Virus record (IMG/VR): IMGVR_UViG_3300033985_000038
Coordinates: 1 to 20,150 of that record
Reading direction: 5' to 3' (one strand)
DNA: 20,150 bases
Source: a virus
Shown here: one piece after another, positions 2,813 through 11,745 of the stretch
How positions within the stretch are numbered: the stretch's first letter is position 1
How the letters are laid out: each line of letters opens with the position of its first letter
Translations under genes and position numbers: made by a program
The notes under the pieces: generated by a model
What the model was told of the DNA's origin: nothing
What the model saw: only the letters and a program-made list of their open reading frames with translations
The model's database searches: none

Positions 2813-4828
2813 ATGGCAAGTTTTAATAACACAATTATCACAAAGAAAGGTCATGCTTTAATAGCAAAAATAGTTGCCGGAACAGCAACACCAAACTTTA
2901 CAAAAATCAGAACTTCAGATTATCAATACCCAAGTGGAACTAATTTTGAAGAACTAACCAGTCTTTCAAGTATAAAACAGACAACGGATGTTGCTAATGT
3001 AACAAAAGTTTCCCCTGCTAAAATTAGAGTAAGTGGGGTTTTCACAAATGCTGCCTTGGAAGCAGGTTATTATGTTAGAAATATTGGACTTTATGCAGTT
3101 GACCCACAGGAAGGGGAAATTCTTTATTCAATAACCACTGCAATTGAAGCGGATTGGATGCCCCCACAAGGTGGAATATCAGCTTCCAGTATTTTGGTTG
3201 ACATTGAAACAGTTGTTGGTAATGCTGACAATGTGAATATTACAGTCAATCCAAATGCAACTGCAACTGTTGAAATGGTCAATAATTTAGTTGCTGAAAT
3301 AGCTGATGTTAAAGGGTTCATTGGTTATACTGAAAATGATATTGTTGGTGTTGAAGTGGATTTTAAGAATAAAAAGTTTACAAGGCTTGCTAGTGCAGTA
3401 AATAAAACTCCTGGTGCTGATTTTGACAGCATTAAAGCTTTTGGCGGTAGAAGAAGATGTAACCTTGCTGATGATGGAACAGTAAAAGCTTATTATGGTG
3501 AACCAGGATATATTGAAAATGGTTCAAATGGTCAAGTAATGGTTGAACAACCAAAATTTTATTACAAGGTTGTTCCTTTAGAAATTGAACCTATTGCTGA
3601 TTATGCTGAAGTAAATACCTTTAAAATAACAGCAGGATGTAGCACCAGCGGTGATTTAACAATAACTCTTAATGGTGTTAATTTTACGGTTGCTGTTACA
3701 GCAGGTGATGATATAAATACTGTTGCGTCTAAAATAAGAAGTGCAACTTTTAATGGCTGGACAACAAGCGGAAGCGGTGACAGTGTAATATTTACCTGCA
3801 ATGAAACAGGTGTAAAAACAACCGGAACATTTAATGGCGGTTCAACTGGTGTTACTGCGATAGTGACAAAAACTGTTGCTGGTGGAAAAAGCAAAGGTTA
3901 CCACATGAGAAAAGCGAGATATTATATTTCTGATACACCAAAGGTTGGCTTTAAGGTTCATCCTGCTTTTGTTAGAAATGGGGTTGAAGTTGATAAGATT
4001 TATTTATCAGCATATGAAGGCAGTATTTATGATGAATCGGCAGGAACCTATTTATTAGCTGATGAACAAATTGCTGATTTTAATGCAGATAAGCTTTCTT
4101 CAATTGCTTATGCTAAACCAGCAAGCGGATTAACTCAAAACCTTACAAGGGCAAATACAAGAAAGCTTGCTAATAACAGGGGAACTGGATGGCAAATTTC
4201 TGATGTTTTATCTGCCGCTGTAACCCAATTACTTTTCATTATTGAATATGCTTCATTTAATATGCAATCAAATATAGGTTTAGGTGTTGTAAGCAAAACT
4301 GATGACGGTTCAACCAATATGAGTGAACTTACAGGTGCAACAACCAACCTTGGAAATGCTTCAGGAATGGCTGCTGGAACAAATGGATTGGTTTCCGTCA
4401 CATATCGTGGTGAAGAAAACTTTTGGGGCAATATTTGGTATTGGGTTGACGGATTAAATATTGAAATTGGTGGCGGTGTTCATGATGCCTGGTATACTGA
4501 TTATGGTTTTACGGATAATATTAAGACTTCACCATATAAAAATACCGGGTTTACATTAGCAAAAAGAAACGGTTATGTTTCAGCAATCGGTTGGTCAGAA
4601 ACATGTGATTTCTTATTCTTACCAACAAAAACCCTTGGTGATTCAAGTTTGCCTATTGGTGATTATTTTTATCAAGACCATGCTTCATCCGGCTGGCGGG
4701 TTTCTCGGTTGGGCGGTCCGTGGAGTGGTGGTTCTAATGCGGGCGGTTTCTTTTGGAGTGTGAATAGTTCGTCGGCTGCTCGTTATCGTTACGTCGGCGG
4801 GCGGCTGCTGTATGTACCCCAAAGCTAA
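2813..4828 (+). CDS. Tail fibre with DGR-diversified C-type-lectin-like C-terminus
   Basis: 671 residues, ATG 2813 behind an AAAGGTGG site. Residues 1 to about 155 resemble the N-terminal attachment domain of phage tail-collar fibres (NNTIITKKGHALIAKI, ... AGYYVRNIGLYAVDP). Residues about 268-360 are a separate Thr/Gly/Ser-rich domain (SGDLTITLNGVNFTVAVTAG, ASKIRSATFNGWTTSG) that looks like an inserted beta-sandwich module. The last third (FWGNIWYWVDGLN, GWSETCDFLFLP, GDYFYQD, then NAGGFFWSVN) fits the formylglycine-enzyme/C-type-lectin fold typical of DGR target proteins. Residues about 629-668 are the variable region. It probably binds the host receptor. The VR-TR pairing proves the DGR role; the exact receptor role is inferred. 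Confidence 0.93.
   Translation: MASFNNTIITKKGHALIAKIVAGTATPNFTKIRTSDYQYPSGTNFEELTSLSSIKQTTDVANVTKVSPAKIRVSGVFTNAALEAGYYVRNIGLYAVDPQEGEILYSITTAIEADWMPPQGGISASSILVDIETVVGNADNVNITVNPNATATVEMVNNLVAEIADVKGFIGYTENDIVGVEVDFKNKKFTRLASAVNKTPGADFDSIKAFGGRRRCNLADDGTVKAYYGEPGYIENGSNGQVMVEQPKFYYKVVPLEIEPIADYAEVNTFKITAGCSTSGDLTITLNGVNFTVAVTAGDDINTVASKIRSATFNGWTTSGSGDSVIFTCNETGVKTTGTFNGGSTGVTAIVTKTVAGGKSKGYHMRKARYYISDTPKVGFKVHPAFVRNGVEVDKIYLSAYEGSIYDESAGTYLLADEQIADFNADKLSSIAYAKPASGLTQNLTRANTRKLANNRGTGWQISDVLSAAVTQLLFIIEYASFNMQSNIGLGVVSKTDDGSTNMSELTGATTNLGNASGMAAGTNGLVSVTYRGEENFWGNIWYWVDGLNIEIGGGVHDAWYTDYGFTDNIKTSPYKNTGFTLAKRNGYVSAIGWSETCDFLFLPTKTLGDSSLPIGDYFYQDHASSGWRVSRLGGPWSGGSNAGGFFWSVNSSSAARYRYVGGRLLYVPQS
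4697..4814 (+). repeat. DGR variable region (VR)
   Basis: 118 bp in the 3' end of the fibre gene that align without gaps to the template at 4886-5003. There are 27 mismatches and all fall at template adenines: by my hand count 21 A to G, 4 A to T and 2 A to C. No template C, G or T is changed. Homology stops abruptly at base 4814, 14 bases before the end of the gene. Confidence 0.95.
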
Positions 4829-4850
4829 TTGACAATTTATGGAATATTAT

Positions 4851-5041
4851 GGGCAAGTAAAAAGAATATTTTTTTTTACTTATTTCAGGTTTCTCAATTA
4901 GGCAGTCAATGGAATAATGGTTCTAATGCAGGCAGTTTCTATTGGAATGTGAATAATTCGTCAGCTAATCGTAATCGTAACATCAGCAGGCAGCTACTAA
5001 ATGCACTTAAAATAAATTTATATTGTGCTTTTTACTTGCCC
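4851..5041 (+). ncRNA. Putative DGR template RNA core bracketed by a 14-bp inverted repeat
   Basis: GGGCAAGTAAAAAG at 4851-4864 is the perfect reverse complement of CTTTTTACTTGCCC at 5028-5041, so the RNA spanning the TR can close into one long stem with the whole template in its loop. The small hairpin TGCC-TCTT-GGCA follows at 5042-5053. DGR template RNAs are known to need structured sequence around the TR for priming and RT binding. That this stem plays that role is inferred, and the transcript ends are unknown. Confidence 0.55.
4886..5003 (+). repeat. DGR template repeat (TR)
   Basis: 118 bp non-coding donor copy between the fibre gene and the reverse transcriptase. It has about 37 adenines, many in AAT/AAC codon positions of the target frame (for example GGAATAATGG and CGTAATCGTAAC). 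Mutating those adenines yields the widest residue choice without making a stop. An open frame crosses it but is not a gene. The TR lies inside a larger potential stem-loop (see the flanking inverted repeat). Confidence 0.95.
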
Positions 5042-5086
5042 TGCCTCTTGGCAAAACATAGAAATAAAACTAATCCTGTATTGGTA

Positions 5087-5162: not shown

Positions 5163-6263
5163 ATGAAAAGATACGGTAATTTATATACTAAAATTTATGA
5201 CATGGAAAATCTAAAGCTTGCACATAAAAATGCAAGAAAAGGAAAGGGGTGGTATAAAGAAGTTAAACTTGTCAATGCAAATGAAGAATATTACTTAAAG
5301 AAGCTTCAGGAATCACTAGTAAATAAGACTTATCAAACTTCTGAATACGAAACCTTTCTGAAGAAAGACGGTGAAAAAGAACGGGAAATTTATAAATTAC
5401 CTTATTTTCCTGATAGAATTTGCCAATGGGCAATTATGCAGGTCATAGAACCCATTTTAATAAATAATTTTACTAAAGACACCTATTCAGCTATTCCAGG
5501 AAGGGGTATTCATCAAGTTGTTAAGCGGATAAGGGGTTATTATAAAGAAATAGATGGAAAACAAGTATATGTTCCAGGTATTTTTATGAAAGACCCTTAT
5601 GGAACCCAATACACTTTGAAATTTGATATTAAAAAGTATTATCCAAATATTGACCATGACATTTTGAAAGCCAAATACAGAAGGATTTTTAAGGATGATG
5701 ACCTTCTTTGGCTACTTGATGAAATTATTGATTCAACCCCTGGTGGTGTGGGAATTCCTATTGGAAATTATCTTTCACAATATAGCGGAAACTTTTATCT
5801 TTCATCCTTTGACCATTGGATTAAAGAAGTTAAAAAGGTTAAGTATTACTTCAGATATATGGATGACATTGTAATATTCGGAAGCAATAAAGAAGAACTG
5901 CACAAATTAAGACTTGATATTGAAGAATATTTAAGGGATGAATTAAAGCTTAAAATCAAGGAAAATTGGCAAGTATTTCCCACATTTATTAGGGGTGTTG
6001 ATTTTGTTGGATATAGATTTTTCTTTGATTATACTTTATTGAGAAAATCAACTTGTAAGAACTTCAAGAAAAAGATGAACAAGATTAAAAAGAAATGCTT
6101 CAGCGGTGGACAAATGAATTATTCTGAATGGTGTTCAATCAATTCTTATAAAGGTTGGTTAATGTGGTGTGATAGTTACAGGTTAAGTAAGAAATACATT
6201 GAACCAATCCAACCTTTTGCTGATGAATACTATGAAAAATATGTTAAAAGAAAGGTGGATTAA
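5163..6263 (+). CDS. DGR reverse transcriptase
   Basis: 366 residues from ATG 5163, chosen because GGTGGGA (5151-5157) sits 5 bases upstream; an in-frame GTG at 5136 has no good site. RT motifs are in order: LKFDIKKYYPNID near residue 155 (catalytic Asp), IPIGNYLSQ near 198-206, and FRYMDDIVIFGS with the YMDD catalytic pair at 232-235. The IGN..SQ form of motif 4, in place of QG...SP, is the signature of DGR reverse transcriptases. It copies the template RNA with adenine-specific errors, and the cDNA replaces the VR. No maturase or endonuclease domain is seen. It sits inside the tail operon, between fibre and small tail genes. Confidence 0.95.
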   Translation: MKRYGNLYTKIYDMENLKLAHKNARKGKGWYKEVKLVNANEEYYLKKLQESLVNKTYQTSEYETFLKKDGEKEREIYKLPYFPDRICQWAIMQVIEPILINNFTKDTYSAIPGRGIHQVVKRIRGYYKEIDGKQVYVPGIFMKDPYGTQYTLKFDIKKYYPNIDHDILKAKYRRIFKDDDLLWLLDEIIDSTPGGVGIPIGNYLSQYSGNFYLSSFDHWIKEVKKVKYYFRYMDDIVIFGSNKEELHKLRLDIEEYLRDELKLKIKENWQVFPTFIRGVDFVGYRFFFDYTLLRKSTCKNFKKKMNKIKKKCFSGGQMNYSEWCSINSYKGWLMWCDSYRLSKKYIEPIQPFADEYYEKYVKRKVD

Positions 6264-9925: not shown

Positions 9926-10200
9926 ATCTTGAACCATCTTGAACTATCTTGAACCAATCTTGAACCGTAACAAACCTTTATTTTATAAGGGTTTTATTAA
10001 TTTGAGTTCAAGAAGTTCAAGATAAATTACTATATTATAAGATTATTTTTATAGATATTTTTTTTAATAAGTATTTTTTTTTTAATTTTTACTTTTATTA
10101 ATAAATATATAATTTATCTTGAACCATCTTGAACCTTCCCATAAAATAAGGCTTTTCATCTTGAACCAAATCTTGAACCATCTTGAACTTATATTGAACC
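9926..10200. repeat. Iteron-like ATCTTGAACC repeat field flanking a very AT-rich core
   Basis: Ten-base repeats of consensus ATCTTGAACC (reverse GGTTCAAGAT) occur at 9926, 9936, 9946, 9957, 10116, 10126, 10158 and 10170, plus the variants ATCTTGAACT at 10180 and ATATTGAACC at 10191. Two copies in the other orientation start at 10005 and 10014. Spacing is mostly 10-12 bases, about one helical turn. Between the clusters, 10021-10115 is almost only A and T. It lies in the 300-base gap between the integrase and the PH-like gene. It could be an operator field for integrase control, a replication origin or a partition site; I cannot decide which. Confidence 0.8.
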
Positions 10201-11715: not shown

Positions 11716-11745
11716 GTTTTTAGTCTACCTATGAGGGATTGAAAT
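11716..11745 (+). CRISPR. Solitary CRISPR-repeat-like unit (type I-B style)
   Basis: A 30-base stretch starting GTTTTTAGTCTACC and ending TATGAGGGATTGAAAT. It matches in length and nearly in sequence the clostridial/thermophile type I-B repeat family I remember (GTTTnTAGCCTACC... TATnAGGAATTGAAAC), including the small CCT-ATG-AGG stem and an 8-base 3' handle ATTGAAAT. There is no second copy one repeat-plus-spacer length away on either side, and no cas gene in the window. It lies in the 152-base gap between two early genes. It could be an RNA anti-CRISPR (solitary repeat unit) or a relic of an array. Resemblance is from memory, not a search. Confidence 0.7.

Follow-up and report, generated by a model that had tools for sequence, protein, structure and literature searches.

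We analyzed a window of 20,150 nucleotides (positions 1 to 20,150 of the virus record IMGVR_UViG_3300033985_000038), which carries a DGR on its plus strand. The target gene (2813-4828) encodes a tail-fibre/tail protein of 671 amino acids, recognized by profile and fold matches, with the variable repeat (VR, 4697-4814) at its C-terminus. Downstream lie the template repeat (TR, 4886-5003), a match to the RT-17 RNA (RF03020, 5037-5145) between TR and the reverse transcriptase gene, and the gene for the DGR reverse transcriptase itself (RT, 366 amino acids, 5163-6263). Baseplate_J and gp48-like baseplate genes are found upstream of the target. The neighbouring genes include an integrase, a repressor and a lysis amidase, which indicates a temperate phage. 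Short tandem ATCTTGAACC-like repeats between the integrase and repressor genes (9926-10200) are perhaps operators. In addition, a solitary CRISPR repeat (11716-11745, Rfam CRISPR-DR2, 43.7 bits, GTTTTTAGTCTACCTATGAGGGATTGAAAT on the plus strand) lies between early genes with no array. Two near-identical phages (L178 and L179) have it singly at the corresponding position and L180 has three copies; the repeat is reminiscent of the single repeats found in RNA anti-CRISPRs (Racrs, PMC10651486).

The N-terminus of the target matched Phage_tail_fib slightly under the Pfam cut-off, and the whole protein matched the tail protein family phrog_5302 (E 3.6e-137). For the last 330 amino acids, the predicted model (pLDDT 89.6) had as its top PDB match TaqVP, the DGR variable protein of Thermus aquaticus (5vf4, E 2.3e-10), followed, weakly, by BPP-1 Mtd. 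VR thus forms the 3′ end of a gene whose product has a predicted CLec-type fold, the location expected for a DGR. While the target C-terminus is similar to TaqVP in fold, the two proteins share 17% identity and the target here has a phage tail-fibre N-terminus.

The RT (RVT_1) contains both the catalytic YMDD and a GxxxSQ-type motif (IGNYLSQ), as DGR reverse transcriptases do. Its best PDB match by sequence was BPP-1 bRT (8ub7, E 4e-31), and its predicted fold (pLDDT 93.6) matched the same structure with E 7.4e-22 and a TMt of 0.90. We found 80 viral loci encoding relatives of this RT, most of which share the order VR, TR, RT and a VR-TR offset of ∼170-280 bases. Among deposited phages, the nearest RTs (44-57% identity) belong to crAss-like phages (cr55_1 and others) and to the Psychrobacillus phage Perkons. 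The relatives in bacterial genomes (61-69% identity) come from Clostridia or Ruminococcus-type MAGs, and a Firmicutes host is therefore likely. In a quick tree, 75 sampled RTs of this kind were separated from the RTs of 24 Avd-bearing DGRs, that of BPP-1 among them (SH-aLRT of the branch, 100), with their monophyly partly by construction because the two sets came from different queries. The bAvd model (PF22296, a single Pfam model) had no match in the window or in any of 14 viral records related to it (15 in total, partial contigs). The DGR therefore appears not to be of the Avd type (BPP-1 subtype): it has no detectable Avd, although the records may be fragments and a divergent Avd is possible.

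VR and TR align with an offset of 189 over 118 bases without gaps. These 118 bases of TR comprise 37 adenines and 81 other bases; the repeats differ at 27 positions (21 A>G, 4 A>T and 2 A>C), every one a TR adenine, while 10 adenines are unchanged and 0 of the 81 other positions differ. If mismatches fell at random, the chance that all 27 would be on A is ∼(37/118)^27, roughly 2.5e-14. Our recount exactly reproduced the numbers of the preliminary description (118 gap-free bases, 27 substitutions, all at A and none at about 81 other positions). It had taken them as evidence of adenine-specific mutagenic retrohoming, and this reading is well supported by the DGR-type RT, the CLec-type target, the turnover of VR (see below) and the near clade of related loci, where the differences are likewise restricted to A. 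In 43 distinct near-clade VR/TR pairs, 1082 of 1598 TR adenines were changed compared to 17 of 3487 other positions.

The adenine restriction holds for all 27 differences, but not all of them appear to be random mutations. The ungapped match extends to ∼5006 with one mismatch, C>T at 4815 (TR 5004), the first beyond the counted span. This position is part of the IMH-like 3′ end of VR (4808-4817), which reads GTATGTA where TR has AAATGCA (4810-4817 against TR 4999-5006). The changes 4810 A>G, 4811 A>T and 4815 C>T are nearly unchanged across most relatives, which suggests that VR and TR differ here in a fixed manner, at the end where cDNA is initiated (IMH), and not through mutagenesis. The GTATGTA/AAATGCA difference probably marks the IMH/IMH* boundary where cDNA would start. 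A BPP-1-like inverted-repeat stem-loop was not found directly 3′ of VR/IMH, where hairpin scores equalled those of shuffled sequences (5.02 versus 5.08). In addition, at 9 of the 21 A>G sites the TR adenine stands before G, and since these sites are G in nearly every relative, they do not represent random diversity. Free diversification is plausible for ∼16 of the 27 differences.

TR is bracketed by a perfect 14-bp inverted repeat. The 5′ arm (GGGCAAGTAAAAAG, 4851-4864) is complementary at 14 of 14 positions to the 3′ arm (CTTTTTACTTGCCC, 5028-5041), which adjoins the first hairpin of RT-17 (TGCC-TCTT-GGCA, 5042-5053). The RT-17 match scored 48 bits by cmscan (gathering threshold 40.4) and spans the full model (positions 1-95 of 95), but the Rfam model starts at the 3′ arm and excludes TR and the long-range helix seen here. 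The complement of the 8 bases adjoining the RT-17 hairpin was present in the VR-TR spacer of 47 of 58 loci versus 0.40 expected from shuffles, a count that is free of pairing-selection bias because the 8-base query was fixed beforehand. In 37 distinct rows, two-sided changes occurred in 6 of 7 helix pairs, and the two helices contained 68 double-change cells compared to 13.5 after shuffling; the 5′ arm of these rows was chosen by pairing, so that the percentage paired is inflated. A similar helix, from upstream of TR to ∼60-80 nt downstream, is present in the Avd-bearing loci L156, L158, L161 and L124, and we therefore rejected the helix as a trait specific to this clade. A TR-clamping helix is probably a general DGR trait, and it may serve as a clamp presenting TR to the RT. 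With an RT of bRT-like fold, a VR that ends a tail-fibre gene with a TaqVP-like C-terminus and structured RNA around TR, the element is a bona fide DGR.

We then grouped the TR adenines according to their 3′ neighbour in the template, the base that the RT copies immediately ahead of the adenine, and left out the last 24 nt, where the fixed IMH-like differences fall. In the 43 near-clade pairs, an adenine before G was G in VR in 169 of 172 cases. Adenines before C were mostly G (74/101) and almost never C (2/101). The other two contexts were variable: adenines before A gave 149 G, 112 T, 46 C and 198 A, and those before T gave 143 G, 77 C, 36 T and 216 A. As the VRs have passed selection, these frequencies do not equal misincorporation rates. 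The change of A before G to G was also seen in Firmicutes genome loci (29/29) and in other relatives of the RT (43/47), and all nine such adenines in the window are G in VR. In contrast, in Avd-bearing DGRs (27 pairs, a small set that comes partly from related elements) only 8 of 53 adenines before G were G and 41 of 53 remained A. The difference persisted after thinning to RTs with <85% identity (36) and to one locus per related Avd-bearing group (143/146 versus 8/28, Fisher 5.5e-17). In some distant members the rule is weaker or absent: L066 keeps A at 2 of 2 sites, and L069, L072 and L078 include T or A. In the sub-branch of L077, L078 and L079, most TR adenines that precede C are G (30/33), possibly a different context preference.

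The preliminary description had also remarked on the bias to G. Its count of 21 of 27 was confirmed, but it gave no cause, and the cause is the context: 9 of the 21 are adenines before G. A uniform G bias was rejected because the share of G depends on the 3′ neighbour. G makes up 65% of changes overall and 55% without the before-G sites, so that the bias is in good part the before-G rule; the latter value is close to the ‘about half’ reported in a general survey (PMC6642488).

The rule also has a counterpart in the spelling of the template. Where VR is GG, the near-clade TR reads AG 168 times and GG 247 times, whereas in Avd-bearing DGRs it reads AG 8 times and GG 185 times. In the near clade it therefore makes almost no difference whether the template has A or G in front of a G. 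The frequency of AG in TR did not track genome GC significantly (rho −0.20, p 0.17). In the window, TR spells SQLGSQW and NAGSF where the VRs read xLGGxW and xAGGF. With before-G recoding, the scaffold motifs LGG.W and AGGF can thus stand as LGS.W and AGSF in the template and be recoded in each copy. Taken together, the data from ∼50 relatives suggest that the RT randomises some template adenines and reads almost every adenine before G as G, and we infer that this misreading is near-deterministic. On balance we favour the view that the Avd-less clade has two kinds of template adenine: one, before A or T, undergoes diversification, and the other, before G (and largely before C), is copied as G with hardly an exception, which would recode conserved scaffold residues that TR does not spell and leave TR positions before G free to drift between A and G without effect.

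Could the invariant G instead reflect protein selection only, so that just those VRs with LGG, AGGF and GGRL survive? Many before-G sites do belong to motifs that are conserved in the CLec fold (consensus LGG.W, AGGF and GGRL). However, selection on the protein cannot see third positions where A and G are synonymous (codons TTA, GCA, TCA, GTA, ACA and GGA were counted), such as TTA versus TTG, and there VR was still G in 63 of 64 cases before G compared to 6 of 29 in other contexts (p 2.8e-15). This was true of TTA|G (32/32), GCA|G (20/20) and TCA|G (5/5), and it survived thinning (43/44 versus 6/18, p 1e-7). A drift toward G-ending codons would also be unexpected in these mostly AT-rich genomes. 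We therefore regard selection alone as an improbable explanation of the before-G sites.

Nor is it at all likely that these G's are fixed VR/TR drift in stretches that retrohoming leaves unreplaced. The extreme 3′ end does carry fixed differences, some of them at bases other than A, but the before-G sites are interspersed with variable sites along the whole of TR and so lie within the overwritten tract, and the rule holds with the last 24 nt dropped. Drift would also have produced non-A differences, which are rare in the near clade (the 17 of 3487 positions given above), and TR is A or G by lineage while VR remains G. We give equally little weight to A-to-I editing of before-G adenosines in the template RNA by a host or phage deaminase, with inosine read as G. 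The idea comes from the neighbour preference of ADAR, and such editing would yield near-complete A to G change with a preference for a 3′ G. However, we noticed no deaminase among those ORFs of the window that we inspected, and the distribution of the rule, in Clostridia as well as Bacteroidota, matches a single RT clade, as that of an RT trait would. Editing thus seems less likely than misreading by the RT.

L004, a near-identical phage from another sample, differs from the window at 11 VR positions, all of them TR adenines, but at none in TR, in the spacer and in the 160 bases after TR, and at one in the 100 bases before VR. VR has therefore diversified while TR stayed constant, as is typical of DGRs, and on this comparison the DGR is, or recently was, active. 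L083, with a TR identical to that of the window, differs from it at 9 VR positions, of which 8 are TR adenines and the ninth is a T>A change. Differences at non-adenine sites in other isolates, which would speak against adenine-specific mutagenesis, thus amount to a trace (this one T>A), and the claim stands. Two contigs with 100% identical RTs, L002 and L003, start just upstream of TR; assemblies tend to break at repeats such as VR/TR. That VR and TR are old duplicates in a dead element is scarcely credible, given an open RT with intact YMDD and a full predicted fold and the 11 differences from L004.

From the repeats, the adenine restriction, the context rule, the helix covariation, the predicted folds of RT and target and the turnover of VR, all read from the sequence, we consider it highly probable that this is the DGR of a temperate phage (probably of Firmicutes) with the order VR-TR-RT, no detectable Avd, a TR-clamp helix and an RT for which the 3′ neighbour sets the class of each adenine. 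The transcript, its priming, the steps of retrohoming, the rule as an RT property and the effect on receptor binding are what we infer beyond this. A transcript would run from the VR-TR spacer into RT and fold, so that the helix 4851-4864/5028-5041 clamps TR beside the RT-17 structure, which would replace the spacer RNA of BPP-1. The RT would copy TR into cDNA, the cDNA would replace VR, which encodes the tail-fibre tip, and the replacement would alter receptor binding. The class of an adenine would be set by its 3′ neighbour, copied just before it: G almost always before G, mostly G before C, and a variable base before A or T, where ∼40-45% would stay A. The RT would insert C opposite A wherever the last base of the primer is a C that pairs with a template G. 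As the template has both diversifying and silently G-recoded adenines, scaffold motifs need not be spelled in TR. We also rejected the idea that, in AA, a wrongly copied second A passes its error on to the first: the first A was G in 51 of 175 cases if the second had become G and in 56 of 254 if it had stayed A, a small increase in a comparison that is confounded by protein selection.

DGRs are usually described as making template adenines random bases. If the rule is true, a near-deterministic adenine context in a natural RT clade would separate ‘is mutated’ from ‘is randomised’, change the way in which DGR diversity is counted and give a workable approach to the failure of these RTs at adenine; in the design of templates for them, AG should be either avoided or put to use. 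The 2012 DiGReF survey described substitutions as essentially random and made a case against strong bias of the enzyme (PMC3521204), and Roux et al., in the portion of their paper considered here, treat the bias as A versus non-A (PMC8144416). The first context map of BPP-1 reported partial biases, in other contexts (PMC12875486). We found no report of the AG rule in the surveys and the BPP-1 context map consulted here, and its priority is not certain.

Finally, we compared the element with known systems. Perkons shares the VR-TR-RT layout and the helix but has a different target protein (an ORF of 357 amino acids). The DGR of BPP-1 (Mtd/TR/Avd/bRT; PDB 8ub7 series) shares the adenine-restricted differences, the RT fold and a CLec-type tail target, and it also has a structured RNA between TR and RT and a possible TR-flanking helix (L124, TCGCCGAAGTGGGGCG/TGTCCTGCTTCGGCGA). 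It differs in that here no Avd was found and the order is VR-TR-RT with a short spacer. In BPP-1, where the overall error is ∼31%, the strong context effect is NAC, which gives G misincorporation (C in VR) and for which slippage has been proposed (PMC12875486). Here, in contrast, both NAG and NAC give G in VR, and C is almost absent at both. Slippage, in which the previous template base is reused, would explain AG (as GG) but not AC, because the predicted AC to CC change is almost absent (2/101 in the near clade), and we rejected it as a general cause. Thus, the element is ordinary as a DGR; the context rule is its new aspect, and this rule fails in the better-known DGRs.
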